The position numbers and the translations under genes were made by a program. A stretch of 56,027 bases of DNA from a virus. Positions 1-19,495 of this stretch are shown piece by piece. Below the pieces are notes generated by a model. It did no database searches and had not been told where the DNA came from. It worked only from the letters and a program-made list of their open reading frames with translations. The first letter of the stretch is position 1, and each line of letters opens with the position of its first letter. The stretch spans positions 1 through 56,027 of IMG/VR virus record IMGVR_UViG_3300010316_000010. The stretch is one strand, 5' to 3'.

Positions 1-56
1 AGTGCGGAAGCCTCTGCGGACAGGGCGGCGAAGTTCGGGCGGTAATGCTCCATCAT
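1..56 (-). CDS. Partial small CDS running off the left edge
   Basis: The minus strand begins with two ATG codons (MMEHYRPNF) three bases after the stop of the gene at 60-365 and stays open for 18 codons to the edge of the window. The tight spacing matches the early operons elsewhere here. Function cannot be judged. If the right end of the window (29-bp repeats) is joined to this edge, the reading frame continues into unnatural Cys/Trp-rich sequence, so the two ends are probably not directly contiguous. Confidence 0.45.
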   Translation of the reverse strand, partial: MMEHYRPNFAALSAEASA

Positions 57-59
57 CGG

Positions 60-365
60 TCAGCCCTCCAGTCCGGAGTACTGCACGAAGTGCTCGCGCA
101 GACTGACCATGATGCTGACCAGCTCCAGCGGATCGTCGCTGATCTCGCGTGCCATGACCTCGCGGCTAACCTTCAGGTCGTGCGCGGCCAGCGTCACCGT
201 GACGAAGGTCTCGGGATCGTCCAGGCTGGTGCGGAGTTCGTCCATCAAGCCCTGCGGCGTCAGCGGCCCCACGCTGTCAACGTGAAGCATGACGCCCTCG
301 TGCTCCAGCAGAGTCGCAGCGGCGTGGATCAGGCGCAGTTGCGCCGCGTTCAGTATGTTCGTCAT
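60..365 (-). CDS. Hypothetical protein, 101 aa
   Basis: Unrecognised soluble acidic protein starting MTNILNAAQ. I chose the internal ATG at 365 because it carries the leader AGCAACAAGGGTAGACACG seen before many early genes here, and because the candidate promoter at 418-447 leaves only that start downstream. Predicted mostly helical, no membrane segment, no cysteines. It lies between the putative small terminase and the left edge, so on a circular map it would be between the small and large terminase genes. Confidence 0.65.
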   Translation of the reverse strand: MTNILNAAQLRLIHAAATLLEHEGVMLHVDSVGPLTPQGLMDELRTSLDDPETFVTVTLAAHDLKVSREVMAREISDDPLELVSIMVSLREHFVQYSGLEG

Positions 366-417
366 CGTGTCTACCCTTGTTGCTATCGTGTCCGGCAACC
401 GCGCCGTCCATAGATAC

Positions 418-447
418 ACTATAGCACTTGGGCCTTGTCTTCCGCAA
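418..447 (-). promoter_or_regulatory. Candidate sigma70-type promoter
   Basis: Minus strand reads TTGCGG, an 18-base spacer, then TATAGT. The spacer (AAGACAAGGCCCAAGTGC) resembles the spacers of the candidate promoters at 5592-5621 and 6623-6652. It would drive the gene starting at 365. Confidence 0.5.
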
Positions 448-468
448 GCCTCTTTGTGCGCGAAGAGG

Positions 469-483
469 GTAACATAATGTTAC
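469..483. promoter_or_regulatory. 15-bp perfect palindrome, possible operator
   Basis: GTAACATAATGTTAC is a perfect palindrome about its central base. It lies about 20 bp upstream of the -35 of the candidate promoter at 418-447, where a dimeric repressor or activator could bind. No other exact copy was noticed. Confidence 0.35.
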
Positions 484-602
484 AGTGACTCCGTCGTCGC
501 CGGGCGGTCCGCGATTCGGCGAACAGGCGACGCGAGTTCCCCGACTCTGGGAGCGCCGGATTCGCGGAGCGACGTATGCGAATACGCGAGCGGAGGATCG
601 CG

Positions 603-650
603 CACCCCCTCCCGGTTTATCGTGCGCACCCCATCCCGGTTTATCGTTCC
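603..650. repeat. Two tandem 24-bp repeats at the 3' end of terS
   Basis: Two adjacent 24-bp units (603-626 and 627-650) share CACCCC(C/A)TCCCGGTTTATCG. A third copy, identical to the second over 24 bp, lies at 1147-1170 upstream of the same gene. The second unit overlaps the stop codon of the putative small terminase (641-643). Repeats around a small terminase gene fit a packaging (pac-like) site or regulator iterons; this role is inferred. Confidence 0.6.
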
Positions 651-1066
651 TCGCCCGTGGCCTTCTTCGCTCGGCTCGCGGCTTCCAGGAGTCCAAGAAG
701 ATTTCCCGCCAGGACCTTCTTCTGCTCCTCGTGCTCGAGGACGTCCGGCGAGTCCAGGATAGAGACCGCGGAGAGTTTCGGGCGAAGATAAGGAGCCGCG
801 TCGCTGTTGGCCTGTCTGCGGAGGGAGGGTTCGTTGCTGTAGTCCGAAGCCATGATCGCGAGCTCTACGACAGGATCGTACTCCTCGATCAGCGGCTGGA
901 TGCGGTCGAGTTCTCGCTCGTCGATCGGCAATCCGTGCTCCTCGAGATACCGCGCACGGATCTCGTCGCGTTTCAGCGAGGTGAAGTGGTGGACTGCGTC
1001 TTGGCTCGCGGCGCGAAGAGCAGTCTTCGAGCGAACACCATGTTGAGGTCTCATAGGGCTGTTCAT
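641..1066 (-). CDS. terS: Putative terminase small subunit
   Basis: A 141-residue protein that would recognise the phage DNA and hand it to the large terminase for packaging. The middle matches the layout of many phage small terminases: DPVVELAIMA, then LRRQANSDAAPYLRPKL, resembling the common DPxxFLL...LRxxAAxxAAPYxHPKL signature. The C-terminus is helical and charged. I chose the ATG at 1066 rather than an in-frame GTG two codons earlier. A promoter (1113-1141) lies just upstream and 24-bp repeats flank the gene. It is distant from terL on the linear map, but upstream of it by a few genes if the map is circular. Recognition is by motif only. Confidence 0.55.
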   Translation of the reverse strand: MNSPMRPQHGVRSKTALRAASQDAVHHFTSLKRDEIRARYLEEHGLPIDERELDRIQPLIEEYDPVVELAIMASDYSNEPSLRRQANSDAAPYLRPKLSAVSILDSPDVLEHEEQKKVLAGNLLGLLEAASRAKKATGEER

Positions 1067-1112
1067 TCGCACAATCTTTCACAAAATCTGACGAAGACGA
1101 TTCATGGAAATT

Positions 1113-1141
1113 ATTCTAACACGACCTTTAATCCCGCGCAA
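1113..1141 (-). promoter_or_regulatory. Promoter upstream of terS
   Basis: Minus strand TTGCGC, 17-base spacer, TAGAAT, about 45 bp before the terS start. The third 24-bp repeat (1147-1170) abuts the -35 region, a good position for a regulator. Confidence 0.55.
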
Positions 1142-1146
1142 GTACT

Positions 1147-1170
1147 CACCCCATCCCGGTTTATCGTTCC
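1147..1170. repeat. Third copy of the 24-bp terS-flanking repeat
   Basis: Identical over 24 bp to the unit at 627-650. It sits 5 bp upstream of the -35 hexamer at 1136-1141. Confidence 0.6.
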
Positions 1171-1332
1171 AGTTTGAGGAGCGGGGGGCTATTGTTCCCC
1201 TGCACCGAAACAATAATTGAGCACCGCAAAACCAATAACCGAACGTTTGATCTGTGCAAAAATGCGCAGTTTCGCACAAAATCCCCTCAAACACCTACTC
1301 GAGAGCACATCACAGTATTACTCTCCCCCGCT
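1171..1332. other. AT-rich gene-free stretch
   Basis: Together with the neighbouring element this makes about 460 bp without a convincing gene. It contains ACCAATAA near 1231 (the motif recurs near 1355 and twice near 24960) and a short symmetrical stretch GTGCAAAAATGCGC...GCAC around 1255-1280. The plus-strand open frame across it has no recognisable features and crosses the conserved non-coding element, so I do not call it a gene. Confidence 0.4.
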
Positions 1333-1458
1333 CACGCCACTTAGCAATAAAGAACCAATAACTCTTTTATCCATACGTTACAGTGACATAGACCTCAAGT
1401 TATTACTTTATCAGTTACATTTGGGGGTTTGGAACTTTTACAAACAGCGATGGGCGCG
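1333..1458 (+). repeat. Non-coding element, left copy (inverted partner at 24916-25042)
   Basis: Three blocks occur here and, in inverted orientation and the same order and spacing, at 24916-25042: CACGCCACTTAG (1333-1344), GTTACATTTGGGGGTTT (1414-1430) and ACAAAC...GATGGGCGCG (1440-1458). Total spans are 126 and 127 bp although the sequence between the blocks has diverged. TTATCCATA at 1367-1375 is one mismatch from a DnaA box. Candidate replication origin or regulatory region; function inferred. Confidence 0.65.
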
Positions 1459-1527
1459 TAGCGCATAGACAGGCTCACGCGTGAATGGGCGCGCGCGAAT
1501 ACATCAAGACCACCCCCGTGACAACCC

Positions 1528-1734
1528 CTAAACGTCATCCTCGAGCGGAACAAGGTCCAAGGAGCTCACCTTCCGCACCCTGCTACTCTTCTCGTCCCTC
1601 ACGTACCTGCCGTCAGGGTAGTGCTTCGTCACCCCCCCGAATATGTCCATCGCGACCAAGGACCCCGAACCCGGAGCGTCCCTACACAGAATTCGGACCT
1701 CCACACTCGGAGCTTTCCTGTACGCCACCCGCAT
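1528..1734 (-). CDS. Hypothetical protein, 68 aa
   Basis: Unrecognised small basic protein starting MRVAYRKAP, followed by a GGVTKHYPDGRYVRDEK segment that could form a beta hairpin. Upstream lies a sequence (1744-1779) repeated before the gene at 6855-7310, which supports a real, separately regulated gene. It is the last gene before the long non-coding region. Confidence 0.5.
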   Translation of the reverse strand: MRVAYRKAPSVEVRILCRDAPGSGSLVAMDIFGGVTKHYPDGRYVRDEKSSRVRKVSSLDLVPLEDDV

Positions 1735-1743
1735 TTAGCCACC

Positions 1744-1779
1744 TACACTCTCGCTTTGCCCTGCCAGCACCCTACCACC
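1744..1779 (-). repeat. Upstream element shared with 7340-7374
   Basis: About 36 bp, nearly identical to 7340-7374 (plus strand TACACTCTC..TTTGCCCT.CC.GCACC.TACCACC). Each copy lies shortly upstream of a minus-strand gene (starts 1734 and 7310). No sigma70 hexamers are obvious in it, so it may be an operator or an alternative promoter. Confidence 0.5.
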
Positions 1780-1872
1780 ACCAGCACCCCCAACTGAGAC
1801 CCCAGCCCCCCAGCCAGCGCCTCCTAGCCCCATCTGTGCACCCCCACCACCCACGCCCTAGCGGGGGACGCC
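1780..1872 (-). other. Strongly G-rich (minus strand) intergenic tract
   Basis: The plus strand is nearly pure C/A/T with runs of C; the minus strand carries many runs of three to six G separated by short spacers (GGGCGTGGGTGGTGGGGG is one). This is compatible with G-quadruplex formation in the transcript between the genes ending at 1873 and starting at 1734. Confidence 0.4.
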
Positions 1873-2553
1873 TCATGCCAGTAGCCTCGGGCCGCTGGCT
1901 CCGCTCACCCGCCCACCCAGATGGACCTTGTTCCCCGCAGCGATACCAGCCCGCGCACCTTCCCCTACGAGTTTAGACCCGCGACCCTTAGACGATGTCG
2001 TCTGCATATGTTCACCCATCCACGCTTGTACTTGCTGATACTCTTTCAAGAGCACGAGCCCAGTCCCCTCCACCTTCGCTTTAGACTCACTCGCTTCACG
2101 CATCTCGTACAGGCGTCCGGCGATACGTGTTCCGCAACCCCTCTCGAAAGCGAGCAGATATCGCCTATCTCCCCCCGCCTCCCGCCGCGCGGCCAGAGCC
2201 AAGCGCCGAACCTCGTCATCGAGGAACTGGATCATACTCGCTGCGACAGTCGCACCAGCCTCGCGACCGATGATGTCGTACCTGTTCACCGACCCGCCCT
2301 TGTAGAAGACGGCCTCGCAGCCGTAGAGGCGGGAACACTGGATTATGATCTGACGTCGCCACGGATCGATGTACTTCGGGTTGACCGTGTGCGGACCGAT
2401 AACCCCCCGCTCCTCCAGGACGGACTCGTCCAAGCCGTGCTCCTCCATCAATTTGCGGGCCTTCTCGGCACAGGTCAAGGCCTCAGCCTCGCCAGCCGCC
2501 GCGTCGCGGGCCTTAGCCATCAACTTCTTGATCTTGTCTGCGATGTCACTCAT
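1873..2553 (-). CDS. DUF2786-type protein, 226 aa
   Basis: The N-terminus (residues 1-42: KIKKLMAKA, GEAEALTCAEKARKLMEEHGL) is the DUF2786 signature found in many phage and bacterial proteins. The remainder (YGCEAVFYKGG, IIGREAGATVAASMIQFL) matches the region that normally follows it (DUF7168-like). Biochemical role unknown. The start carries the leader CAGCAACGAGGAGTATCAAG, and GTTCGTAAGTTAAAATG just upstream resembles the region before the gene at 15086-15511. The C-terminus is basic and Gly-rich. Confidence 0.8.
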   Translation of the reverse strand: MSDIADKIKKLMAKARDAAAGEAEALTCAEKARKLMEEHGLDESVLEERGVIGPHTVNPKYIDPWRRQIIIQCSRLYGCEAVFYKGGSVNRYDIIGREAGATVAASMIQFLDDEVRRLALAARREAGGDRRYLLAFERGCGTRIAGRLYEMREASESKAKVEGTGLVLLKEYQQVQAWMGEHMQTTSSKGRGSKLVGEGARAGIAAGNKVHLGGRVSGASGPRLLA

Positions 2554-2590
2554 CTTGATACTCCTCGTTGCTGTGTGAATACATTTTAAC

Positions 2591-2863
2591 TTACGAACGG
2601 TCTCGTAGACCAGCCTCCACCCCTCGGATCAGGCCCATCTTGCCGTACGAGTGAGCCAAGATACTCGCGTCTGTGATGTTCGCCCCACCCGCCGCCAGAT
2701 AGCCGACGAGGTAGAAGACTTCCTGCGCCGCCGCCGCTGCCGCGACGAGGCGCTCGTAGTCGTCCATCCCGTCTATCGCAGCCTGCGAGTGTATCTCCTG
2801 CATCGCAGCTCGCGCTATCGTCTGGCCCATCAACTCCGCTGCTCGGGCGTCCTCATGATTCAT
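2591..2863 (-). CDS. Hypothetical protein, 90 aa
   Basis: Unrecognised. Ala-rich helical protein (residues 40-60 AAAAAAQEVFYLVGYLAAGGAN are moderately hydrophobic but not a clear membrane helix). Its start overlaps the end of the upstream gene by 11 bases, indicating translational coupling in the small-gene operon. Confidence 0.65.
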   Translation of the reverse strand: MNHEDARAAELMGQTIARAAMQEIHSQAAIDGMDDYERLVAAAAAAQEVFYLVGYLAAGGANITDASILAHSYGKMGLIRGVEAGLRDRS

Positions 2864-3143
2864 CTAGTCGTCCTCTCATCAGTTTTCTCGCGGACCGCAC
2901 GATGCCTTGACGCCTGTTCTTGTCAGCATCTGGACCCATGAATATGGAGCGATCATGCGTGTCCAGCGCCACCAGTACAGACTCAATCACAACCATCTGC
3001 TCCTCGAGCACCTTTCTCTCATGCTCTGATGCACAGAACTTCGTGTACGTCTCCAGCACCAAGGCACACAGATTACCGTTCTTTTCGTGAAGAACCTCGA
3101 TCTGCGCCTGCAAATCCTCCACTATCTCAGGATACGTCGTCAC
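2853..3143 (-). CDS. Hypothetical protein, 96 aa
   Basis: Unrecognised, predicted coiled coil at residues 5-55 (IVEDLQAQIEVLHEKNGNL and following). I chose the GTG at 3143 because GGGAG lies seven bases upstream; the longer frame would overlap the preceding gene more deeply. The C-terminus is basic (NRRQGIVRSARKLMRGR), which may contact nucleic acid. Confidence 0.6.
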   Translation of the reverse strand: MTTYPEIVEDLQAQIEVLHEKNGNLCALVLETYTKFCASEHERKVLEEQMVVIESVLVALDTHDRSIFMGPDADKNRRQGIVRSARKLMRGRLDES

Positions 3144-3459
3144 GCTCAATCTCCCACACCCCGTAGCAGGCTCCGTCACCTTCGTGCGCACCTATCCACA
3201 ACCCTGCCGGAGCAAGGACCTCGCACCACCACCGCTCGTACTCCTCGAGCAGTTCAGCGAACTCGAGTTCGTCGACCTGCTCGGCCAGAGCCTCCTCAGC
3301 CTCGTGGTGGACGCCGGGACGGCGAGTCAGATACCCCCGCCCCAGCCCGACCAGACACCGCAACCTGAGCCGCGAACCGAGATGCCCCTCTGTGAGCACC
3401 CCCACCGCGATTTTGCCCTGAGGAAATACTTCCTCGCGCCGTGCACCACCTATCATCAT
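3127..3459 (-). CDS. Hypothetical protein, 110 aa
   Basis: Unrecognised. Basic N-terminal half and acidic helical centre (EAEEALAEQVDELEFAELLEE). Overlaps the upstream gene by ATGA, the usual coupling in this operon. Confidence 0.6.
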   Translation of the reverse strand: MMIGGARREEVFPQGKIAVGVLTEGHLGSRLRLRCLVGLGRGYLTRRPGVHHEAEEALAEQVDELEFAELLEEYERWWCEVLAPAGLWIGAHEGDGACYGVWEIERDDVS

Positions 3460-3674
3460 TTTTTCATCTCCTCAGCATCCCTCAGTGCGCTCAGCTTGTA
3501 CTGACACCAGTCGGGGGTCCACATGTCAGCGGGCAGCCGTAGAGTGCCGCTGTTCCAGAGGCAGGAGTTACCCAGCCGACCAGCACAGTCAAAGCGTCCG
3601 CTCTGGCACTTGGCGACCATCTCACCATCTCGCTCGATCACGACTGGTCCGAATGTCTTCTGATAATCACTCAT
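3456..3674 (-). CDS. Hypothetical protein, 72 aa
   Basis: Unrecognised small protein with four cysteines (C at about residues 23, 30, 38 and 58), so a metal-binding fold is possible but not shown. Its stop overlaps the next start by four bases and its start overlaps the upstream gene. Confidence 0.6.
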   Translation of the reverse strand: MSDYQKTFGPVVIERDGEMVAKCQSGRFDCAGRLGNSCLWNSGTLRLPADMWTPDWCQYKLSALRDAEEMKK

Positions 3675-3813
3675 TCTCTGTCTCCAGCTTCTTTATCTCT
3701 TGCTTCAGTTGCTCCACGTACTTCGGATCGCCGAGGTGCGGATACTTCGCCAGTACCTTCGGGTTCGTGCAGTCTGCGAGATCGCTTCGCAGTATCTTCA
3801 GCCTACCCGCCAT
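3667..3813 (-). CDS. Hypothetical protein, 48 aa
   Basis: Short protein starting MAGRLKILRSDL and ending in a charged helix (KYVEQLKQEIKKLETENE). I chose this ATG because the longer frame runs antisense-like through the upstream gene. Overlaps both neighbours by about 10 bases. Function unknown. Confidence 0.5.
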   Translation of the reverse strand: MAGRLKILRSDLADCTNPKVLAKYPHLGDPKYVEQLKQEIKKLETENE

Positions 3814-4057
3814 CGCCCCACTCCCCCAACTCAATACGTATCTTCCGCTCCAGCTCGGCCCAGCCGTCGAAAGCGTGGACCGTGTTCCTCGCAGCCTGAT
3901 CAGCCAGCTCGCGCAGGAACGCTGCGCGAGCATCAGGCATGACGACGATACTCAGCTGCTCGATACCCGTGAGTCGCTGATCACCCACAGTGACTTCTGC
4001 ACTGTGCGCGTCGCCGTCTGTGATCTTGATGTGAACGAGTTTCCCTGCTTCAGCCAT
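3803..4057 (-). CDS. Hypothetical protein, 84 aa
   Basis: Starts MAEAGKLVHIKITDGDA, predicted beta-rich then helical (AAFLRELADQAARNTV). Overlaps the upstream stop by eight bases. The longer in-frame extension is low-complexity Ser/Arg-rich and duplicates the coding space of the gene at 4050-4307, so I reject it. Confidence 0.6.
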   Translation of the reverse strand: MAEAGKLVHIKITDGDAHSAEVTVGDQRLTGIEQLSIVVMPDARAAFLRELADQAARNTVHAFDGWAELERKIRIELGEWGDGG

Positions 4058-4307
4058 TACTCCACTCCACGTTGTCGTCGTCGGACGCCTGCTCGGCCAC
4101 CAGTGCGGCGAGTTTCTCGCCGAACTTTTCTGCGAACTCTTCTTCACTGTACTCCTTATCTTCGTAGGAGATACCGCGAACCTCGACGTTCTCAGGCTCG
4201 TACCAGATGGGCGAGCGGGCGACACCGTAGTCGTTGCGGACCATCTCGGCGTCCATCTCCACGTAGAACTCCATCGTCACGCAGACTGTTCTCGTTGCTC
4301 TAGTCAT
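4050..4307 (-). CDS. Hypothetical protein, 85 aa
   Basis: Unrecognised acidic protein. Predicted N-terminal beta strands (RTVCVTMEFYVEMDAEMV) and an acidic helix (EEEFAEKFGEKLAALVAEQ). Stop and start overlap with both neighbours. Confidence 0.6.
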   Translation of the reverse strand: MTRATRTVCVTMEFYVEMDAEMVRNDYGVARSPIWYEPENVEVRGISYEDKEYSEEEFAEKFGEKLAALVAEQASDDDNVEWSNG

Positions 4308-4491
4308 TGCTCACCCTCACCCCCAGACGCTCGCACATGCGCCACATCGTTCCCACGTTGACGACGAGCTTCCTGCTCGCCGACGTGATGCTGCCGCACT
4401 CGTCCACCGCAGCCTGAAGCATTTCCTTCAGCTCGGTATCGTGTCGCGCTCTGAGGGCGGCGTACTCACCACCGCTGTTCTTCTGTTCCAT
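4300..4491 (-). CDS. Small Fis-type helix-turn-helix protein, 63 aa
   Basis: The C-terminal half (GSITSASRKLVVNVGTMWRM) fits a Fis/NtrC-type or homeodomain-like helix-turn-helix, with recognition helix GTMWRMCERLG. Likely a small DNA-binding regulator; target unknown. Its start overlaps the preceding gene by 26 bases. Confidence 0.55.
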   Translation of the reverse strand: MEQKNSGGEYAALRARHDTELKEMLQAAVDECGSITSASRKLVVNVGTMWRMCERLGVRVSND

Positions 4492-4663
4492 CTACCAGTC
4501 CTTTCTTTGTTCCACCCATAAGGATGTGCTTGATCTCACCGCCCGTCAGGCCGCACATGCCACCCAGAGTCAGCACGGTGATATTCGTCGTGTCGAAGAA
4601 GTCACGTATCTCCTCATCGGACCAGTCCCCCGCTCGGCGGGGGTCGCACCACTTCTCACCCAT
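4466..4663 (-). CDS. Small helical, possibly HTH, protein, 65 aa
   Basis: Segment ITVLTLGGMCGLTGGEIKHI has the rhythm of a helix-turn-helix (layered helices with a GGMCGLT turn), preceded by SDEEIRDFFDT. A DNA-binding role is plausible, not established. Confidence 0.5.
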   Translation of the reverse strand: MGEKWCDPRRAGDWSDEEIRDFFDTTNITVLTLGGMCGLTGGEIKHILMGGTKKGLVDGTEEQRW

Positions 4664-4880
4664 CTAGTCTCATCCTTGTCTCTGTTCCGAGCCAGCGACC
4701 CTCGCAGGTCCAGAAGCTCAGTTCGACCACTGTTCCGTCGTCGAAGAGTTCGCTGACTTTCTTGTCGCGCTCGCGCTTGGTCCGCATGTACCACAACTGA
4801 GCAAAGCTGCCGCCAGGACCACCACAGACCCCGAGGACGTAGGTCCCCGAAGCCTGTCGCCACGTCTGAGCCTCAGGCAC
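4656..4880 (-). CDS. Hypothetical protein, 74 aa
   Basis: Unrecognised, starts MPEAQTWRQASGTYVL, mixed beta pattern with a charged centre (RTKRERDKKVSELF). Overlaps both neighbours by eight bases. Confidence 0.55.
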   Translation of the reverse strand: MPEAQTWRQASGTYVLGVCGGPGGSFAQLWYMRTKRERDKKVSELFDDGTVVELSFWTCEGRWLGTETRMRLDG

Positions 4881-5097
4881 CGCGCTGCGCCCTCACCCAA
4901 GCGTCGAGATCAGCCACTGCTGCGTCAGCCTCGGTTCGCTTGTACGTCTTGCCGACGATGCGTCCCGCTGCTGCAAGAGCCTTGGTCATCGTCCAGCCAC
5001 GGTTCGGTCGCATACCGAGCTTCATCATCTTGATGCCGTGCTTGGTGGTGATCGCCTGAAATACGGTGACCTCTTCGATACCTGCGAAAGTCGTCAT
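4873..5097 (-). CDS. Hypothetical protein, 74 aa
   Basis: Unrecognised basic protein with two predicted helices (TMTKALAAAGRIVGK and ADAAVADLDAWVRAQ). It lies three bases after the next upstream stop. Confidence 0.6.
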   Translation of the reverse strand: MTTFAGIEEVTVFQAITTKHGIKMMKLGMRPNRGWTMTKALAAAGRIVGKTYKRTEADAAVADLDAWVRAQRGA

Positions 5098-5100
5098 GAT

Positions 5101-5289
5101 TTATCTCCTGACCTGTACAGTGAATTCCATGTTGTCGAGGATGTCTTCGACAGCTCGCTCGATCGCACCCTCACGCTCGAATTCTTCCAGCAACTTGCGC
5201 TCAACCATCTCACCGACTATCTCTTCCAAGTCGTCGGAGATGTACGTCAGCAAGGCTTTTGCGATAGCTTTCATCATATCTTCCATCAC
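5101..5289 (-). CDS. Hypothetical acidic helical protein, 62 aa
   Basis: Almost entirely predicted helix and strongly acidic (DDLEEIVGEMVERKLLEEF). Overlaps the upstream gene by ATGA. Unknown function; small acidic early proteins often act as host-protein inhibitors, which is speculation here. Confidence 0.6.
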   Translation of the reverse strand: MMEDMMKAIAKALLTYISDDLEEIVGEMVERKLLEEFEREGAIERAVEDILDNMEFTVQVRR

Positions 5290-5555
5290 ACCACCTCCGC
5301 GAGCAGTTCGCTCACCCAGTCAGGCACCCCTGTCGGCAACGTCTCCACAGCGTTCAGCCAGCCGCGAGCTTCGTCCAGGAACATCTCGTAGTGGTCGTCG
5401 TTCTCGATGAACTCTTCGCAGATGGTCAGCACTGCGCTCACGAGCGTCGTGTGCTCGTTGAAACTCCACCACCGCATATTCTCAGCGGTCGGGCGGGGCA
5501 TCCCGCAGTTTGAGCGGGCGAGCATCGCCGCTGCTACGAACTTGATATGATTCAT
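5286..5555 (-). CDS. Hypothetical protein, 89 aa
   Basis: Unrecognised; helical, aromatic-rich (MRWWSFNEH, DDHYEMFLDEARGWLNAV). Leader ACAACAACGGAGAATATC matches the early-gene leader, and a promoter candidate lies at 5592-5621, so this is the first gene of a transcription unit running left. Confidence 0.65.
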   Translation of the reverse strand: MNHIKFVAAAMLARSNCGMPRPTAENMRWWSFNEHTTLVSAVLTICEEFIENDDHYEMFLDEARGWLNAVETLPTGVPDWVSELLAEVV

Positions 5556-5591
5556 GATATTCTCCGTTGTTGTGTGCTACTGCGTAGAGCA

Positions 5592-5621
5592 AGCCTAACC
5601 TGCGACCCTTGTCAAGCGCAA
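5592..5621 (-). promoter_or_regulatory. Candidate promoter
   Basis: Minus strand TTGCGC, 18-base spacer TTGACAAGGGTCGCAGGT, TAGGCT. The promoter candidate at 6623-6652 has the same -10 and a spacer identical at most positions. It overlaps the end of the upstream gene by ten bases. Confidence 0.55.
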
Positions 5622-5848
5622 GTTCGTTTTATGTAGGGAAGATACGTTTTCACGCTGATCATGTGATGATTGCCCTCCTCGTCCTGACAGTGCAGAATCC
5701 CGTCCGCCTCCAGGTAGACGGGGTGGTTCTTGTACACGTAGACCGCACCGTCGTCTGCCTCCAGTCCGTTATTCTTCCACGCCTCTGCGGGTGTGGCGAA
5801 GTGGAACTCACCGTCCACGAGTGCCTGAACATAGTCGTTGATTGTCAT
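5612..5848 (-). CDS. Hypothetical protein, 78 aa
   Basis: Starts MTINDYVQALVDGEF. It has alternating beta-strand patterns (GAVYVYKNHPVYLEADG, HHMISVKTYLPY), compatible with a small beta-rich fold. Overlaps the upstream 55-residue gene by four bases. Confidence 0.6.
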   Translation of the reverse strand: MTINDYVQALVDGEFHFATPAEAWKNNGLEADDGAVYVYKNHPVYLEADGILHCQDEEGNHHMISVKTYLPYIKRTCA

Positions 5849-6012
5849 AGTCCCTCATCCAGTCTGTCTGCGGCGCGACGCAGCTTCGTCGCCCATTCCT
5901 TCATTGTCCATCTGCCAACGGAGCGGCGAGTCTCCATGTGCAGGTGAAGCGTACCGACCACCCCCGCCATTTCGGCGAGGGCTTCACGTATCCTCTGACC
6001 CGCTGTTCTCAC
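5845..6012 (-). CDS. Hypothetical protein, 55 aa (GTG start)
   Basis: A short frame that exactly fills the space between two neighbours, with GTGA overlap at its start and ATGA overlap at its end. It begins (M)RTAGQRIREALAEMAG and ends WATKLRRAADRLDEGL. Helical and basic, amphipathic. The exact coupling at both ends is the main support for its being real. Confidence 0.6.
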   Translation of the reverse strand: MRTAGQRIREALAEMAGVVGTLHLHMETRRSVGRWTMKEWATKLRRAADRLDEGL

Positions 6013-6359
6013 CGCAGAATCCGATAGAGGTGGTCAGCCTTGACCATACTTACCCCCGCCTGAACCTGCTCCAGCGTGAGGTTCGACTCAGTGTTCTCGC
6101 CGTCGTCGTCGCAGTCGCCCACGACGAGCGCGCGACCACAGATCAACTCAGGGTGATCGGGGGTCATTAAGAAGCCCTCGTGCTCTCTGAGAAGCCCCTC
6201 GTCGTCGCAGTAGATCACGTTCTTCTCGTCGTACTGCGCGATCGTCACGCAGCTACACTGGAGGAGTTCGTAGGAGCACTCGAGGAAGCCGCTGCCTGAG
6301 CGGGGGATATTGTGCTCGGTGACTTTGCCCGCGATCGGGTCGATCAGAAATACTTTCAT
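6009..6359 (-). CDS. Hypothetical protein, 116 aa (DUF3846-like layout)
   Basis: Begins MKVFLIDPIAGKVTEH. Further on it has NVIYCDDEGLL, GFLMTPDHPELICGRALVVG and DCDDDGE, an arrangement resembling the small DUF3846-type phage proteins (start, DEG, LICGRALVVG, acidic turn). Function unknown. One-base junction with the upstream gene. Confidence 0.6.
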   Translation of the reverse strand: MKVFLIDPIAGKVTEHNIPRSGSGFLECSYELLQCSCVTIAQYDEKNVIYCDDEGLLREHEGFLMTPDHPELICGRALVVGDCDDDGENTESNLTLEQVQAGVSMVKADHLYRILR

Positions 6360-6586
6360 CAGAACACCATCCAGTAGTTGTCTTCAGTCAAGGGATCTCC
6401 TGGCTCGCCGTTCACGTACCAGCCCTCCTCCTCGTTATCTACTGGGGAGGCCACGGGGGCCATCACTTCCACAGGGCAACCCATCGGGCCGTCCAGCACG
6501 TAGCGGAAACCTTCGTGTACGAAGTCGTCGTTCTCGCGGCAGCGCCGCTGCGCCTCAAGTGGTGATAAAGTCGGGGTCTTACTCAT
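6359..6586 (-). CDS. Hypothetical protein, 75 aa
   Basis: Unrecognised acidic protein starting MSKTPTLSPLEAQRR. First gene of a leftward unit: leader CAGCAAGGAGAACTATC before the ATG and promoter at 6623-6652. Confidence 0.65.
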   Translation of the reverse strand: MSKTPTLSPLEAQRRCRENDDFVHEGFRYVLDGPMGCPVEVMAPVASPVDNEEEGWYVNGEPGDPLTEDNYWMVF

Positions 6587-6622
6587 GATAGTTCTCCTTG
6601 CTGAGCACCGTTGCTCTGAGCA

Positions 6623-6652
6623 AGCCTACCATGCGGCCCTTGTCAAGGACAA
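6623..6652 (-). promoter_or_regulatory. Candidate promoter
   Basis: Minus strand TTGTCC, 18-base spacer TTGACAAGGGCCGCATGG, TAGGCT. The following TTGCTC also matches 5592-5621. It fills the only gap between 6587 and 6657. Confidence 0.6.
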
Positions 6653-6657
6653 GCCTC

Positions 6658-6864
6658 TTATTGTTCTTTCTTCTTGTAGACCTTGATCTCCTCGATACCG
6701 AGGTGCTCCATGATCTTGAACCCCGGAGCGCGATGCCCCCACAGAACAGCGTTTAGGAATGATGGGTAGACTCCGAGCTTGTCCGCGAAGGCTGACTGAG
6801 AAGAGTAACCCCTCAGTTCTTCCTTCAGTGTCTCGATGATCTCTTCTCGTGTTATTATCTGCAC
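6658..6864 (-). CDS. Cro/XRE-like DNA-binding protein, 68 aa
   Basis: A short helix-turn-helix protein: SQSAFADKLGVYPSFLNAVL fits helices 2-3 of the lambda-repressor/Cro fold, followed by GHRAPGFKIMEHLGIEEI. Probably a transcriptional regulator of the early genes. I chose the GTG at 6864, which overlaps the upstream stop and has GGAAAG nine bases upstream. The downstream promoter at 6623-6652 is an obvious candidate target, though this is inference. Confidence 0.65.
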   Translation of the reverse strand: MQIITREEIIETLKEELRGYSSQSAFADKLGVYPSFLNAVLWGHRAPGFKIMEHLGIEEIKVYKKKEQ

Positions 6865-7310
6865 AATATCTTTCCTATCTTCTCCCAGTCCCAGTTCTCC
6901 GGACCACCGGAGCAGACGATCAGCGGTTCTGGTCCTTTGAGTCCGTGCTTCCCGAGTTCCGAGACGACGCGACCCGAGTGGAGCCAAATCTCGTCGACAG
7001 GCGCACCGAGGCGCACCCCACCCTGAGTTTGTCTCCGAGTCGCCACGAACACGCGACCTCCTCGAATCGTACGTTCTCTGATCCAACCGATCTGCTCGGT
7101 TCGCAGACCGACGGACCAAGCATCAGTCTTCTTGAACTCGATCCAGCCCTCCACACCCACGATCCACCCGTCTCCGGACGGGTGGCTCGTCGATGCGCAG
7201 AAGTTCGAGTCAGGAATCCCGCGCCCCGTCCCTCCGGTCTCGACGGACTGCCAGTGCCACCCCCGCCGGAGTTTATCTCGGAACTTGTCTCGCAGTCCGC
7301 CGTCGATCAT
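6855..7310 (-). CDS. PD-(D/E)XK-like nuclease, 151 aa
   Basis: Residues around 33 (RGIPDSN), 58 (WIEFKK) and 70 (RTEQIGWI) give the spacing of the restriction-endonuclease-like core used by VRR-NUC and phage resolvase-like nucleases: PD, then E-x-K, then a Q-containing helix. The next strand, GGRVFVATRR, also fits. Likely processes branched or host DNA. Leader AGCAGTTGGAGAACTAACG precedes the ATG, and an element shared with the gene at 1528 lies upstream. Confidence 0.6.
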   Translation of the reverse strand: MIDGGLRDKFRDKLRRGWHWQSVETGGTGRGIPDSNFCASTSHPSGDGWIVGVEGWIEFKKTDAWSVGLRTEQIGWIRERTIRGGRVFVATRRQTQGGVRLGAPVDEIWLHSGRVVSELGKHGLKGPEPLIVCSGGPENWDWEKIGKILCR

Positions 7311-7339
7311 CGTTAGTTCTCCAACTGCTGTGCGGGCCG

Positions 7340-7374
7340 TACACTCTCAGTTTGCCCTACCCGCACCTACCACC
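7340..7374 (-). repeat. Upstream element shared with 1744-1779
   Basis: Second copy of the element described at 1744-1779, about 30 bp upstream of the nuclease start, within the 119-bp gap between two genes. No other gene is visible in that gap. Confidence 0.5.
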
Positions 7375-7429
7375 CCAAAACAGCGTTCCTGACCGCTGGG
7401 CGACCGCGCCAGCGCGTCTGACGCGTCAT

Positions 7430-8095
7430 CTACCGCATGTAGTGGCGTGCGGTGTGCAAAACGTCGCCGTCGAAGTCCTGTTTGGTGATCCAGGAGAGGT
7501 AGCTCTGCGGCACCTCAGACCAGAGTTCGCCGAAGTGCTTGCCGAACCCGACCTTCTTGAGCAGAATGGGGGCAGTGCTGAGGTAAATCAGCTCCTCGAC
7601 GCTGCGATCCTTCGCCAAGAATTCCAGGAGTTTCTGAGTCACCCACGCGTCGTAGAGGGCGCGGTGAGCCAAGACCCCCGCCTCAGCGGGCATGTCCGAC
7701 CAGTCCAGACCGAACTCGTAGGCGAGCGACATGTTCTTGTGCGACTCGGCGTCGGGAAGAAGGTGCATGGCGAGTCGATACGTGCAGATCCAAGGTTTCT
7801 CCTGCATCCACTTCGGGAGAAACGCCTTGTCGAAGGCAGCGTTGTGAGCAGCGAATACGATGTCATCCTCCGGACCGCAGCAGTAGTCGATCACAGACTC
7901 GAGAGTCGGCGCATCAGCGACCATCTCTTCTGTAATGTGGTGCGTCGCCATCGCTCCGAAGCTGATCTTGTGCTCGGGTTTGATGAGACTGTGGTGGTAG
8001 TCTCCGATCTTGTCTACAGTCGCAAACTCCACGACGCTGTTCGTCAGTGGGTCGAATCCGGTAGTCTCGGTGTCGATAGTCCAGATGTTAGTCAT
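7430..8095 (-). CDS. DnaQ-family 3'-5' exonuclease (ExoX-like), 221 aa
   Basis: DEDD-type exonuclease that removes nucleotides from 3' ends. Exo I is DTETTGFD (residues 8-15), Exo II AHNAAFDKAF (about 89-98) and Exo III HRALYDAW (about 149-156), the DEDDh form. The C-terminal part (GKHFGELWSEVPQSYLSWI) matches the small GKHKG..VPxxYLxW domain seen in ExoX. It may supply repair or host-DNA degradation. It has its own promoter region shared back to back with the gene at 8156. Confidence 0.85.
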   Translation of the reverse strand: MTNIWTIDTETTGFDPLTNSVVEFATVDKIGDYHHSLIKPEHKISFGAMATHHITEEMVADAPTLESVIDYCCGPEDDIVFAAHNAAFDKAFLPKWMQEKPWICTYRLAMHLLPDAESHKNMSLAYEFGLDWSDMPAEAGVLAHRALYDAWVTQKLLEFLAKDRSVEELIYLSTAPILLKKVGFGKHFGELWSEVPQSYLSWITKQDFDGDVLHTARHYMR

Positions 8096-8101
8096 GTCGG
8101 G

Positions 8102-8153
8102 TTGTCCTGTGATTGTTCCGCGATTATACTACAAACTACCAAAGGAGTTACAA
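8102..8153. promoter_or_regulatory. Divergent promoters with overlapping -10 boxes
   Basis: Plus strand: TTGTCC (8102-8107), 17-base spacer, TATACT (8125-8130), driving the gene at 8156. Minus strand: TATAAT (8123-8128) with a weak TTGTAA 19 bases upstream (8148-8153), driving the exonuclease. The two -10 boxes overlap, so the promoters should compete. Confidence 0.6.
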
Positions 8154-8155
8154 TC

Positions 8156-8818
8156 ATGCAACACGTACACGAAATTCCGAGAATGCGTCGTACGAAGCAC
8201 GACTTCACGACCTACACTGACGCTCAACTTCTCAGCGCGTTCAACGCCGTGAATACTCGAGAGATACGGCACTTCTCTGATCGTCAGGTCCTCGAGAGGC
8301 GACTCATCCAGCTTCTCGACAGCCGAGAGCTGATGCTGGACTGGTTCGCGAACGGCAGTGAGATTATGATAACGGAGGACGGCGTCGCCATATACTCACT
8401 GCGAAACCACCCGAGCAACCGAGTTGCTCTCGGTCACGCGGCAGACTACAAGGATCTGATCATCCACATGCTGGTGGACGAGAACCCGAAGACTGGTCGC
8501 TCCATGCGACGATTCGACCTGTACGAGGAGGGTATCTCAGTCGCCGACTACGTCGCCCGCTGCATGGTGCTGATGGGTGAGAAAAATGGCAGAGTATGGG
8601 CTCATCAGGACCTGAGGTGGGACGTAGCTCGCGGCTTCATATCGCTGGAGTGTCCGTACACGGGGGAGACTATCATCAAGGTGGAGCAGTTCGACACGTG
8701 GTGGATCGGCGTAATAGCTATGAGTCGAAAGAAGCGCGACAAGGAGAGATACGAGCGCGGCGAGATACCGCGCCCGACATTCATGGAACCGGAAGATATC
8801 AGTCAGACAGTTTCTTGA
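8156..8818 (+). CDS. NPK-domain protein, 220 aa
   Basis: One of only four plus-strand genes. The start ATG follows AAAGGAG and the promoter at 8102-8130. Residues about 112-170 contain a degenerate copy of a small domain found also at 19597-20280 and 55489-55812: NPKTGRSMRRFDLYEEG ... DLRWDVARGFISL. In this copy the middle is expanded by about 15 residues. The rest (HFSDRQVLERRLIQLLDSREL and a basic tail) is unrecognised. The domain is common in uncharacterised mobile-element proteins; role unknown. Its end overlaps the convergent gene at 8799 by 20 bases. Confidence 0.7.
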   Translation: MQHVHEIPRMRRTKHDFTTYTDAQLLSAFNAVNTREIRHFSDRQVLERRLIQLLDSRELMLDWFANGSEIMITEDGVAIYSLRNHPSNRVALGHAADYKDLIIHMLVDENPKTGRSMRRFDLYEEGISVADYVARCMVLMGEKNGRVWAHQDLRWDVARGFISLECPYTGETIIKVEQFDTWWIGVIAMSRKKRDKERYERGEIPRPTFMEPEDISQTVS

Positions 8819-9044
8819 TAATGTCTTCGTAGACTTCGTCTACAGTCTGCGGGTGCGCTGTGGTGAGTTTCTTGTGAACTATGCTTCGCACCTTGTCAGA
8901 CAGAGTTGAAACTTTTCTCACATGTTCTCTGTCCAGAGTACACCCCCTGCATCTACAGTTATCGAAGTATCTGTGTTCGTTACCGTAGATGCAGGTAACT
9001 GTCTCATCTTCTTTTTCTGCCGCCCAGCCTCTACTACTTCCCAT
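8799..9044 (-). CDS. Small Cys-rich protein, 81 aa
   Basis: CIYGNEHRYFDNCRCRGC contains four cysteines plus histidine within 18 residues, suggesting a zinc-binding knuckle. I chose the ATG at 9044, nine bases after the polymerase stop and preceded by AGCAACATAGGAGCGAAA, the early leader. The C-terminus is helical. Function unknown; the position after the polymerase suggests a replication accessory. Confidence 0.55.
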   Translation of the reverse strand: MGSSRGWAAEKEDETVTCIYGNEHRYFDNCRCRGCTLDREHVRKVSTLSDKVRSIVHKKLTTAHPQTVDEVYEDIIKKLSD

Positions 9045-9052
9045 TTTCGCTC

Positions 9053-11041
9053 CTATGTTGCTATCTGTGCCATCGCTGTGTTGAACTTGGCATCGTAACC
9101 ATCTTTCTCTTTGGCTGTCCCCCAAGTTTTCCCGAACTCAGCGTCGACGACGACGGGTACGCTCAGCTTGACTGACTCCACCATGCAAGCCTGAGCAATC
9201 TCAGCCTGACGCTCTGTACTAAAACTGAAATCTAACTCGTCGTGCATCTGTAGTAGGGGCAGAAGACCTTCTTTCCAACACATACGCATAGAAAGTTTCG
9301 TCTGCCGCGCGGCCGAGCCTTGGATCAACCAGTTGAGCGACTTGTGTGTGAACGCTCTGCGGAGGTTGCCGGACCAAGGGTGATCAGGGTCGGACATCCG
9401 CCGCATAGCTTCCTCGCGGTCACACGGCCCCAGAGGTTTTCCGCTGCGGGCAGCTTCCTTGTAGTCTACCCATCGCGGTTCCCAGCGCTCGAAGCGAACC
9501 CGCGCACCGTCGATGAGCCGGATGTACCCCCGCCTCCCCGCGACTGACTGCACGAACTCGGAGAGGCGCTTCACGAAAGGTGCCTCCTCATCGTACTGCT
9601 CCATCGTAGCCTTCGCCTCCTCCAACGTCATGCCCGTCATGAGTGCGAACTTCGGCACACCAGCCCCGAAGGCTTTCGCGAAGTTTACATCTTTGGCGCG
9701 GCGGCGGGGGAGACCTGTCAGTTCTGCTACGAGACTGTGAAAGTCTGTACGAGGATCGTCGTTGTAGCGAGCCACAGGCTTGTCCGCACCCTGCACTCCA
9801 CAGGCGTGTGCGAAGTGTACGATCAGGCGATACTCCTGCTGCGAGTAGTCCAGCGCACCCCAGACCTCACCGTGCTCCGGCATGAACAGGCCGCGAATAG
9901 AGTCAGCGATCTCGGGGTCGCGCGACGGCATCTGCTGTAGCGGGGGATCACTGTAGGCGAAGCGGCTGGTCTTCGTGCCGCCGCGATCGTTCTTGAACTG
10001 GTGGATCTCGGCGTGGATGCGACCGCGGTGAGCGTAGTCGATGAGATACCCCTGCACGAACTTGTCCCCAGCGTCGTGCATCTTGTGGGTCCGCGCTACG
10101 AGTTGCGGGAGCCAGTGGTCGATCTTGTTCATCCAGTCAGCCTGGAAGGACGGCGCACCTTTCTCCGTGTAAGGATACACGATATTCTCGTCTTTGAACC
10201 ACTTTTCGAGGAACTTGGGCGACTTGACGTCTTTCATTGTGACGTCGCGCCCCATGCAGAGTTTACGACTCAACTCAGCCAGAGCATCGTCGCGTTTGGT
10301 CAGCAGGTCGTCGCGGATTTCTGGTGCGCGGCGCGTGTCGAACCGAACACCCCTCCGACGCATAGCCATCACCATCGGTATCAGGTCGCGCTCCAGCCCG
10401 TAACTCTCAGTAATATTCTGCGCCTGTATCTGGGGCCAGAACTTCTCGTACAGTTTCAGTGTACTGACGGCGTCCTGCTCAGCATACGGGGCCACGAACC
10501 GAGCAGGCAGTTTCCAGAGCTCACCTTTCGGGTTGTAGCCGAAGGCTCGGGCAGCATCTTGCAACATACTCTCATCTTTGCCCTCGATCCCCTGCCACTT
10601 GCAGAGGCTGTCCAGATTGTAGGTGAGGCGCTGCTCGTCGAGTGAGTAGGCCATAGCAAGAGTATCGTGGAACTTCTCGGGTGTAGGTATATCCCACTCT
10701 GCACTGATCCAGCCGAGGTCGTACGCGGCGTTCTGGAATACGATCCACTCGTCGGCTCCCATGTGGTCCCGCAGCCACCGACCCACATTCTCGTGCGGGA
10801 AGTTGTCAGTCTCGGGGTGGGCGACCGGGACGTAGACACTCCCCCGCTTGGAGGCCATGCTGACCCCCACGATTTTCCCTGCACCGTACACCCATCCGGG
10901 ACCTCGGCTGTTTGCGAGACCATCGTCGCGCGTCTCGGTATCGATCGCTATGACGCCAGACCCGCGAAGGTCTGGCAATTCTTTCGGCACTACCCAGTCA
11001 CTCTTGGGCAGGAGGAAGTCCATGGGGAGTTGATCAGCCAT
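9053..11041 (-). CDS. Family A DNA polymerase with proofreading domain, 662 aa
   Basis: Replicative polymerase. The exonuclease domain has DTE (about residues 34-36), NAAYDL (about 104-109) and YAEQDAVST (about 186-194), so all acidic residues are present. Polymerase motif A is DYSQQEYRL (about 398-406), motif B RRRAKDVNFAKAFGAG (about 446-461) and motif C HDE (about 600-602). There is no 5' nuclease domain. Motif B has AKAFG where most family A enzymes have GxxYG, a Tyr-to-Phe change at the position linked to ddNTP discrimination and fidelity. The ATG at 11041 overlaps the upstream stop by one base. Sits with nucleotide-pool genes, as in phages with altered bases. Confidence 0.93.
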   Translation of the reverse strand: MADQLPMDFLLPKSDWVVPKELPDLRGSGVIAIDTETRDDGLANSRGPGWVYGAGKIVGVSMASKRGSVYVPVAHPETDNFPHENVGRWLRDHMGADEWIVFQNAAYDLGWISAEWDIPTPEKFHDTLAMAYSLDEQRLTYNLDSLCKWQGIEGKDESMLQDAARAFGYNPKGELWKLPARFVAPYAEQDAVSTLKLYEKFWPQIQAQNITESYGLERDLIPMVMAMRRRGVRFDTRRAPEIRDDLLTKRDDALAELSRKLCMGRDVTMKDVKSPKFLEKWFKDENIVYPYTEKGAPSFQADWMNKIDHWLPQLVARTHKMHDAGDKFVQGYLIDYAHRGRIHAEIHQFKNDRGGTKTSRFAYSDPPLQQMPSRDPEIADSIRGLFMPEHGEVWGALDYSQQEYRLIVHFAHACGVQGADKPVARYNDDPRTDFHSLVAELTGLPRRRAKDVNFAKAFGAGVPKFALMTGMTLEEAKATMEQYDEEAPFVKRLSEFVQSVAGRRGYIRLIDGARVRFERWEPRWVDYKEAARSGKPLGPCDREEAMRRMSDPDHPWSGNLRRAFTHKSLNWLIQGSAARQTKLSMRMCWKEGLLPLLQMHDELDFSFSTERQAEIAQACMVESVKLSVPVVVDAEFGKTWGTAKEKDGYDAKFNTAMAQIAT

Positions 11042-11415
11042 CAGATATCTATCATCGGGACGTAGCCGCGACCAGTCGGACACTCTACCTTGGCTTGACG
11101 CGGGCCGCGAGAATAGGTTCGCATTGCTGCGGTCTCAGTATCCTCAGCGGTGAGGCGTTCGCGCACACGGTCAGCACTCAGTTTGGAGTATCCGGCCATG
11201 TCGTCCCAGTGGTCAGCGATGTCAGGGTTGCCAGTGACCACGCGCCCCATCTTGTGGGCGATCATGTGCAGTGTCTCTTTCTGATCGTCTGCCAGCATGT
11301 TCCAGTTGCGGTGACTCTGTAGAACACGCATCAGCTCCTGCGTACAGTTCGCGTGTTCGGTGTAGTCTCCGTGGGTCTTGGCCCGCTCTTGTAGGATTTT
11401 GTCGATGTCGGTCAT
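11041..11415 (-). CDS. MazZ/DUF6378-like protein, 124 aa
   Basis: Helical protein with ERAKTHGDY at the start and QKETLHMIAHKMGRVVTG...DHWDDMAGY in the middle. This is the DUF6378 pattern, a MazG-like group that includes the dGTP/dATP diphosphohydrolase MazZ of diaminopurine phages. MazG-type enzymes cleave dNTPs to dNMPs and PPi. Here it lies between an HD nucleotidase and PolA, the same company as in Z-genome phages, but no purZ is seen. Likely trims a canonical dNTP from the pool. SD AAAAAGGA precedes the ATG. Confidence 0.7.
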   Translation of the reverse strand: MTDIDKILQERAKTHGDYTEHANCTQELMRVLQSHRNWNMLADDQKETLHMIAHKMGRVVTGNPDIADHWDDMAGYSKLSADRVRERLTAEDTETAAMRTYSRGPRQAKVECPTGRGYVPMIDI

Positions 11416-11918
11416 CTTATGGTTCCTTTTTCTACGAACTTGGCGACTGCAAGGTTTTCATGCGGTGTCTCACACATCTGGAGCGCGGCCTCGAGTGTGC
11501 GATCGATGATCGGTTGAGCCAAGGTGTTCCCCTTGGCCCGCTCTTCTACGCCGTACTCCCACATCTCGAGCAGATCGCATATCTTGAGATAGCGGTGCTC
11601 GTCGACGGTGGTGCTGTCCTCGGGGTCGACACCATCCAGGAGTTTGCTGCGGTGAATTGCTTCCACGCGATCATACGCAGCCTTCATGTCAGAGTTCTCG
11701 CGCTTGACTGGAAACGGTGCATCACCTGTCTTCACCTCGCCGACGTCGTGGTAGATTACAGCACGAATTGCGTTCAGACTAGGTAGCCCGAATATCTGGT
11801 CGTAGATGCGCAGAACGTGCCACGTGTGCTCGGCGACTGTCTGCTCACGAATGACGGGCCACGTGTGATAACGCTTGACGAGTCCCGCGTACCGGAGGCT
11901 ATCTGTTGGGATATTCAT
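11412..11918 (-). CDS. HD-domain 5'-deoxynucleotidase (YfbR/DatZ-like), 168 aa
   Basis: Metal-dependent HD phosphohydrolase. H31 (AEHTWHVL), H57-D58 (YHDVGEVKTGD) and D115 (KICDLLE) supply the HD metal site, and TGDAPFPVKR matches the substrate loop of YfbR-type 5'-deoxynucleotidases. DatZ, the dATP triphosphohydrolase of diaminopurine phages, has the same fold. It probably hydrolyses dNMP or dNTP to bias the pool. The ATG at 11918 follows GGAGAAAG; ATGA overlaps couple it to both neighbours. Confidence 0.8.
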   Translation of the reverse strand: MNIPTDSLRYAGLVKRYHTWPVIREQTVAEHTWHVLRIYDQIFGLPSLNAIRAVIYHDVGEVKTGDAPFPVKRENSDMKAAYDRVEAIHRSKLLDGVDPEDSTTVDEHRYLKICDLLEMWEYGVEERAKGNTLAQPIIDRTLEAALQMCETPHENLAVAKFVEKGTIR

Positions 11919-12109
11919 ACGATTTCTTTCTCCACTGCGAGCCACTCTGGAATCCAGAGTGTGTAGATACCGTCGTGACCACTCTCCTCAAGCTGGCACT
12001 GGCTCTTCGGAACCCAGACAGCCTCTTCAGGTATGCTGTCTGTCACGAGCCACTCCGAACTTGTCTCGTGCAGAAGTTGCACACTGACGTCGATAACCTC
12101 ATCCATCAC
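11915..12109 (-). CDS. Hypothetical protein, 64 aa
   Basis: Small acidic protein (MMDEVIDVSVQLLHE ... GIYTLWIPEWLAVEKEIV), unrecognised, coupled by ATGA overlaps between the thymidylate-synthase homologue and the HD enzyme. Confidence 0.55.
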   Translation of the reverse strand: MMDEVIDVSVQLLHETSSEWLVTDSIPEEAVWVPKSQCQLEESGHDGIYTLWIPEWLAVEKEIV

Positions 12110-13065: not shown

Positions 13066-13379
13066 AGTGTTCTTCTCCTGTTTTCTGACCCGTGCGGGTC
13101 GTTCTTCTTGGTTGAGTAGGCGTACATCAGCTCAGCTATCTTCTCTGCTTTCTTCATCACAGCCTCTATCTCCTGCAAGTCGATCCCGGTGCTTTCACGA
13201 AGATGGATCTTCTGTACAGCGATCAGGATAGCTGTGTTGTAGACACACAGATCATGCGTCTGGCTGACGCCGTTCAGCATGTCGATCGCCCACGTGCAGG
13301 CTGAGTAGACGCGTGTCTTCAGTTGTGGGACTTCACAGTCGCACAGCGGATGCACCGAGTTTGGTGAGTCATCAGCCAT
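13059..13379 (-). CDS. Hypothetical protein, 106 aa
   Basis: Helical protein, Cys in the first part (PLCDCEVP), then two long helices (EAVMKKAEKIAELMYAYS). Not recognised. Coupled by overlaps to the glycosyltransferase upstream and the TS homologue downstream, so probably part of the same process. Confidence 0.6.
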   Translation of the reverse strand: MADDSPNSVHPLCDCEVPQLKTRVYSACTWAIDMLNGVSQTHDLCVYNTAILIAVQKIHLRESTGIDLQEIEAVMKKAEKIAELMYAYSTKKNDPHGSENRRRTLC

Positions 13380-15511: not shown

Positions 15512-15540
15512 CTCAACCCCTAAGTTGTTTGTGAGAACAT

Positions 15541-15569
15541 TTTATACTACGAACAGCATGTGGACCAGT
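15541..15569 (-). promoter_or_regulatory. Weak promoter candidate for the epimerase-glycosyltransferase-TS operon
   Basis: Minus strand -10 TATAAA at 15541-15546 with only a weak ACTGGT 17 bases upstream. The stretch CTGTTCGTAGTATAAAATG is close to CCGTTCGTAAGTTAAAATG before the gene at 1873-2553, which suggests a shared control element. The rest of the 138-bp gap shows nothing else. Confidence 0.35.
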
Positions 15570-15649
15570 TAGTTCGGTCTCGCCTTGGGGCGGGGATAGC
15601 GTTGCCGCAGGACATGTCGTCAGGAAACGGAACGACCCCGCTGATACCG

Positions 15650-15979: not shown

Positions 15980-16000
15980 CAGTCATCATCCCCGTCGTCA

Positions 16001-17797: not shown

Positions 17798-17813
17798 GAT
17801 GTGCTCCCTTGTT

Positions 17814-17862
17814 GCTATACTTGCACGAGACAAGTATAGCATTTGACCAGCATCATTGACTA
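17814..17862 (-). promoter_or_regulatory. Promoter with 10-bp inverted-repeat operator
   Basis: GCTATACTTG (17814-17823) and CAAGTATAGC (17831-17840) form a perfect 10-bp inverted repeat around a 7-base centre. The right arm contains the minus-strand -10 TATACT (17833-17838); a weak TAGTCA -35 lies 18 bases upstream. A dimeric regulator bound here would block the promoter of the GHKL gene. Confidence 0.55.
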
Positions 17863-17868
17863 GCCTCT

Positions 17869-19479: not shown

Positions 19480-19495
19480 GGTTATCTCCCATATG

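Follow-up and report, generated by a model that had tools for sequence, protein, structure and literature searches.

Paired iteron arrays of shared layout in an uncultured tailed phage and its relatives, candidate paired replication origins

The origins of most lytic phages are not known, and paired origins have been documented in few of them, such as the Bacillus subtilis phage SPP1. In SPP1, oriL and oriR are both bound by the origin-binding protein gp38 (G38P); they contain repeats and an AT-rich region and are served by this one binding protein, and oriR has been proposed to act as a gp38-bound fork barrier at which concatemer synthesis starts (PMC6316719, PMC3485210). Here we analyze a pair of repeat arrays in the IMG/VR virus record IMGVR_UViG_3300010316_000010, which was taken as a whole (56,027 bases, classed as linear) and is referred to below as the window. 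It encodes the terminase, portal, head, tape measure and tail genes of a tailed phage. Similar repeats are familiar from iteron-type plasmid origins, which carry short direct repeats with near-helical phasing and replicon-specific letters. The arrays described here share these three properties; unlike the plasmid origins, they occur twice per genome, and their repeats are arranged in three blocks of alternating orientation.

An earlier note on this DNA had described a non-coding element of 126 bp present in two inverted copies. The inverted duplication is real. The block CACGCCACTTAG occurs exactly twice in the window, at 1333-1344 (plus strand, site B) and 25031-25042 (minus strand, site A), and so does GTTACATTTGGGGGTTT, at 1414-1430 (plus strand, site B) and 24943-24959 (minus strand, site A), against a chance expectation of 0.04 even when three mismatches are allowed. 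A third block, ACAAAC..CGATGGGCGCG, falls within the same local alignment of the two sites. Aligning the copies, a check that the earlier note had named, gave an inverted local alignment score of 57, whereas 1000 dinucleotide shuffles reached 26 at most; nowhere else in the window is the score of 57 approached. The CAATAA repeats noted at both copies were likewise borne out: in the window, CAATA is most densely clustered at 24859-25054 (Poisson E about 1e-7), followed by 1190-1356 (about 2e-4). Each copy is an iteron array, whose unit X is TATTG in the window. The length of 126 bp proved too small, since the two sites extend over about 24862-25113 and about 1190-1500. Their parts are as follows (rcX, reverse complement of X).

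24862-25113, plus strand: site A, made up of iteron array and core; the leftward replication operon lies on one side and the rightward helicase gene on the other; densest CAATA cluster, with place and layout conserved in relatives
24896-24900, plus strand: first X (TATTG) of site A, left of the core, read from the sequence
24907-24919, plus strand: core of site A, alternating purine/pyrimidine tract TACGCGCGCGCGC; the window has only one other such tract of at least 13
24943-24959, minus strand: site A copy of GTTACATTTGGGGGTTT
24960-24972, plus strand: rcX pair of site A, CAATAaacCAATA, 8-bp period
25013-25028, plus strand: X pair of site A, TATTGcttcgcTATTG, 11-bp period
25031-25042, minus strand: site A copy of CACGCCACTTAG
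1190-1500, minus strand: site B, the second array, in inverted orientation to site A; flanked by the end of the early operon and by the leftward block toward the terminase (its position upstream of that block presupposes the joining of both contig ends); second densest CAATA cluster
1333-1344, plus strand: site B copy of CACGCCACTTAG
1345-1360, minus strand: X pair of site B, TATTGgttcttTATTG on the minus strand, 11-bp period
1400-1413, minus strand: degenerate rcX pair of site B, TGATAAAGTAATAA on the minus strand, read from the sequence
1414-1430, plus strand: site B copy of GTTACATTTGGGGGTTT
1449-1497, minus strand: GC-rich core of site B with GCGCGCGCG; its purine/pyrimidine tract is by itself not significant (P 0.26)

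Two further repeats were seen in this region. An CACCCCATCCCGGTTTATCGTTCC-like repeat is present three times to the left of site B, at 598-650 and 1142-1170, and GTTACAGTGAC occurs exactly twice in the window, at 479-489 and, inside site B, at 1377-1387.

Read toward the helicase, the sites share one order: X, a GC-rich core that is often alternating purine/pyrimidine, two rcX with a period of 8-9 bp, an interval of 40-60 bp, and two X with a period of 11 bp, often trailed by GCGGGGGAG. In 28 genomes (1.6 Mb), matches to the pattern CAATA-N2-5-CAATA-N25-90-TATTG-N3-7-TATTG were confined to these sites. Same-strand spacings within sites were 8 (11 cases), 9 (5 cases) and 11 (10 cases); since the sites were picked for their repeats, these counts are a description of the layout and no test of it. 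The alternating tract was considered as a universal feature and rejected: it is unusual at many sites, and not at those of contigs G014 and G015 or at site B of the window. The letters of the repeat vary from phage to phage (TATTG, TAATA, TGATAA, TGGAACG, TGGAACC) and are common to both sites of a genome. Because the letters differ between phages and agree within each genome, they point to a sequence-specific protein acting at both sites, a putative DNA-binding protein that co-evolves with the repeats.

To follow the element in relatives, helicase and primase were used to locate their loci, and 22 related contigs were read from end to end. G001 and G013, both close relatives, carry the site A element itself; a second site was not found in these two contigs, which are shorter and in which no large terminase was found either. 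In G011, G012, G002, G003, G014 and G015, CAATA clusters are densest at the position of site A and at a single distant locus; the helicase gene of G011 is relocated and adjoins the other site. As a separate observation, in three places (G011:1-1017, L148:5600-7733 and L153:5190-6949) the SNF2-type helicase gene does not stand beside the DUF7307 gene but nonetheless has an iteron array immediately upstream. When k-mers enriched at site A were collected de novo, with no preset letters, one other strong cluster was found in most long contigs, and the repeats had different letters in G014, G015, G018, G020 and G023; the few random controls that matched the real score probably overlap the sites themselves. 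Alignment of site A to site B exceeded all 200 shuffles in ten contigs (the window, G011, G012, G002, G003, G014, G015, G018, G020 and G023), the better orientation being inverted in nine and direct in G012. Pairs hinted at by k-mers in G019 and G021 did not align above shuffles and were excluded from the count.

A sequence-agnostic scan, which accepts any k-mer in the layout without an assumed repeat sequence, extended the set. With 5-mers it added G022 (GTATT) and G025 (TAATA); with 6-mers, shared pairs were found in G011, G002 and four cultured phages, compared with none in 310 shuffled genomes, the shuffles preserving base composition only. The pairs of the cultured phages are given below.

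20885 and 43643: pair in PMBT28, 6-mer layout scan
25371 and 1778: pair in VLCpiS6a, 6-mer layout scan
8236 and 31252: pair in PSA28, 6-mer layout scan
39186 and 14182: pair in Kokobel2, 6-mer layout scan

These phages infect Salmonella, Klebsiella, Pseudomonas and Providencia. Their sites lie largely in non-coding gaps, one of them at or just upstream of the primase gene, and within each phage the two sites have the same orientation. In total, the pair was found in 12 uncultured contigs, the window included, and in four cultured phages. The two sites are separated by 0.42-0.58 of the record in 15 of these 16 and by 0.67 in G018, a contig that starts at site B; the fractions are approximate because many records are linear contigs whose completeness is not established. 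No pair was found in 023Pt_psg01, DSL-LC04, MW202510, G016, G017, G024 or G026-G029. By eye, Acinetobacter phage JeffCo resembles the others, with GGTAAC repeats at 20.6 and 42.9-43.1 kb; the scans did not return it and it was not counted. A scan of viral contigs with GTTACATTTGGGGGTTT returned a single unrelated match. The iteron layout is kept in relatives; the exact blocks named in the earlier note are lineage-specific. The observation is confirmed and extends well beyond the window; no earlier description of these pairs was found in the literature searched, the coverage of which was partial.

It might be argued that the two copies are alike by chance or through a recent duplication without function. 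In the window alone they have only short blocks in common, and the k-mer test is weak for it: 13 of 300 controls reach the real score. The case for the window rests on the alignment. The shuffle tests and the recurrence of the layout with other repeat letters in distant phages leave this explanation scarcely credible, and the comparative data already contradict it.

The genes around the sites bear on their function. In the window, site A is placed beside replication genes, upstream of both the SNF2-type helicase and the replication operon, and the replication module combines a TOTE-type archaeo-eukaryotic primase, a UvrD-like helicase, a DNA polymerase A and an SNF2-type helicase.

25148-26584, plus strand: SNF2-type helicase, rightward gene adjoining site A
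24235-24828, minus strand: DUF7307 (Pam3 gp33-like) protein with a coiled coil, adjoining site A; candidate binder
23441-24238, minus strand: Pam3 gp34-like protein that weakly resembles OB-fold proteins and may bind single-stranded DNA
21851-23377, minus strand: primase with a TOTE-type archaeo-eukaryotic primase domain; candidate binder
20336-21835, minus strand: UvrD-like helicase
9053-11083, minus strand: DNA polymerase A family
641-1072, minus strand: gene of unassigned family adjoining site B, with homologues beside site B in G002, G014 and G015
53937-55343, minus strand: terminase large subunit

We consider it rather probable, on the strength of sequence comparison, that the pair represents two replication origins, or one origin together with a secondary initiator-binding site. 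A pair of origins, one of the possibilities raised in the earlier note, is best supported by the evidence: the iterons are phased, there are two sites per genome, mostly near-antipodal and beside replication genes, and the anatomy is kept although the letters change. Origins are favoured because of this phasing, the two sites per genome, the nearness to replication genes and the precedent of SPP1. As in SPP1, one site lies in the replication region and one in the late region (PMC6316719, PMC3485210); each genome has two distant sites of similar organization, and direct repeats are present at both. There are differences as well. SPP1 uses gp38, the helicase loader gp39 and a DnaB-family helicase in place of the TOTE-type primase, UvrD-like helicase and DNA polymerase A seen here, and no gp38-type initiator, gp39-type loader or DnaB-family helicase was present among the main proteins scanned, which did not include every small open reading frame (ORF). 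The oriL of SPP1 is inside gene 38 and here the sites are largely intergenic; the SPP1 sites are about 12-13 kb apart and here they are about half a genome apart; and the repeats of alternating orientation around a GC-rich core set the present layout apart from SPP1. The best reading is a pair that may operate like oriL and oriR with an unrelated replication module. One phage-encoded protein would bind the phased iterons at both sites, and this common binder would co-evolve with the repeats; its assembly would open the DNA next to the array, where the phage primase, UvrD-like helicase and DNA polymerase A could load. Two sites about half a genome apart would allow both halves to be copied in parallel; alternatively, the second site may stall forks and start concatemer synthesis, as proposed for oriR of SPP1.

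The main rival is that the sites are operators or enhancers, at which one phage regulator would co-regulate the helicase and replication operons and the late operon. Both sites are upstream of operons, and promoter-like sequences are found nearby.

25085-25113, plus strand: promoter-like TTGTCC-17-TATAAT, directed at the helicase, from a consensus scan
24858-24886, minus strand: promoter-like TTGCAC-17-TATTGT, directed at the replication operon, read from the sequence and absent from the consensus-scan output
1113-1141, minus strand: promoter-like TTGCGC-17-TAGAAT, directed at the terminase-side block, read from the sequence and absent from the consensus-scan output

A co-evolving regulator would equally explain why the repeats are common to both sites within a genome. 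In the window, two weak terminator-like hairpins (2 found, 0.9 expected) part the array of site B from its promoter-like sequence, and in G012 the orientation is reversed relative to the neighbouring operon; both are mildly against operators. Large phased arrays of alternating orientation around a GC-rich core are also more usual for origins. Co-regulation appears distinctly less probable than replication, yet several observations weigh against origins. The orientation of the array relative to the neighbouring operon is the same in most genomes, as expected of an operator too. Sites A and B also divide early from late genes, so that the half-genome spacing could stem from this arrangement alone. 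The AT-rich stretches seen at the sites are a common property of intergenic DNA. The binding protein is known as candidates only. Finally, a change of GC skew at both sites, which the earlier note had named as a check, was looked for, and no turning point was found at the sites in the window or in the cultured phages, even in PMBT28 and PSA28, where all genes share one strand. Positions 1001-5000 of the window have a strong negative GC skew (-0.19 to -0.28), far stronger than the rest.

Other signals were also considered. At most sites the lowest GC content of any 60-bp stretch is unusual (P 0.003-0.07; 0.19 at one), intergenic DNA not being the control in this comparison. The near-DnaA box TTATCCATA (1367) reported at the left copy is present there, at site B only. 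Near-matches to DnaA boxes are enriched at site B of the window (4) and of PMBT28 (3), the other sites having 0-1 (0.05-0.5 expected). Such boxes are therefore not general at these elements in relatives, and a DnaA-dependent origin is not supported. No Rfam match for a structured RNA was obtained.

If replication is the function, a single site might be the active origin, the other binding the same protein for titration, as a fork block or for a switch of replication mode. The SPP1 model, in which gp38-bound oriR is a fork barrier (PMC6316719, PMC3485210), and the degenerate rcX pair at site B of the window are in line with this; both arrays are equally complete elsewhere, for example in G002, PMBT28 and VLCpiS6a, and we regard a single active origin as unlikely. 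Recombination or packaging control, also put forward in the earlier note, found no support. Site B does adjoin the terminase block in several genomes; site A, however, is separated from the terminase by about half a genome, no recombinase turned up among the genes examined, and the inversion is not conserved, the orientation varying by genome and being direct in G012 and the four cultured phages. Such a role is very improbable.

Returning to paired origins, the candidates for their binder are the primase, the DUF7307 protein, the gp34-like protein and the SNF2-type helicase. The replication proteins of ColE2 and pRN1 are primase-type initiators, and this precedent makes the phage primase a candidate; the comparison is a lead only, as no DNA-binding domain has been demonstrated in the phage primase. 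No RepA-type initiator was seen among the proteins scanned. For the DUF7307 protein, tblastn gave no match in PMBT28 or JeffCo, a search of viral contigs returned nothing, and its fold had no match in the PDB. The fold search with the gp34-like protein gave weak matches only, many of them to OB-fold proteins, and it may bind single-stranded DNA.

Several observations concern the rest of the window. Megablast of positions 1-20000 against named phages gave no match; the 14 kb viral contig L007, from a different sample, is 100% identical to the window across the part of the helicase that it covers. Thymidylate-synthase-like, dCTP-deaminase-like and glucosyltransferase-like genes at 11412-18528 suggest modified DNA bases. 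A single ORF at 50186-51892 matches RNA ligase, DNA methyltransferase and head maturation protease profiles, and an ORF of 541 codons at 7193-8818 (plus strand), amid leftward genes and with no PHROG match, may not be a gene. An exact 29-bp tandem repeat is present three times at the right contig end (55940-56027), and a 71-nt direct repeat (5552-5622 and 6583-6653, 1031 bp apart) is 72% identical.

We propose, tentatively, that a broad group of phages with the TOTE-type primase module might have two near-antipodal origins; their architecture would be conserved, and their iteron letters would switch from one lineage to the next along with a dedicated initiator. If this is true, origin specificity would diversify while the machine is kept. 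Because the layout can be recognized without the repeat sequence, and in cultured phages, the number of origins, the specificity of the initiator and its co-evolution with the repeats are directly testable, and the layout offers a route to origin prediction in metagenomic phages.
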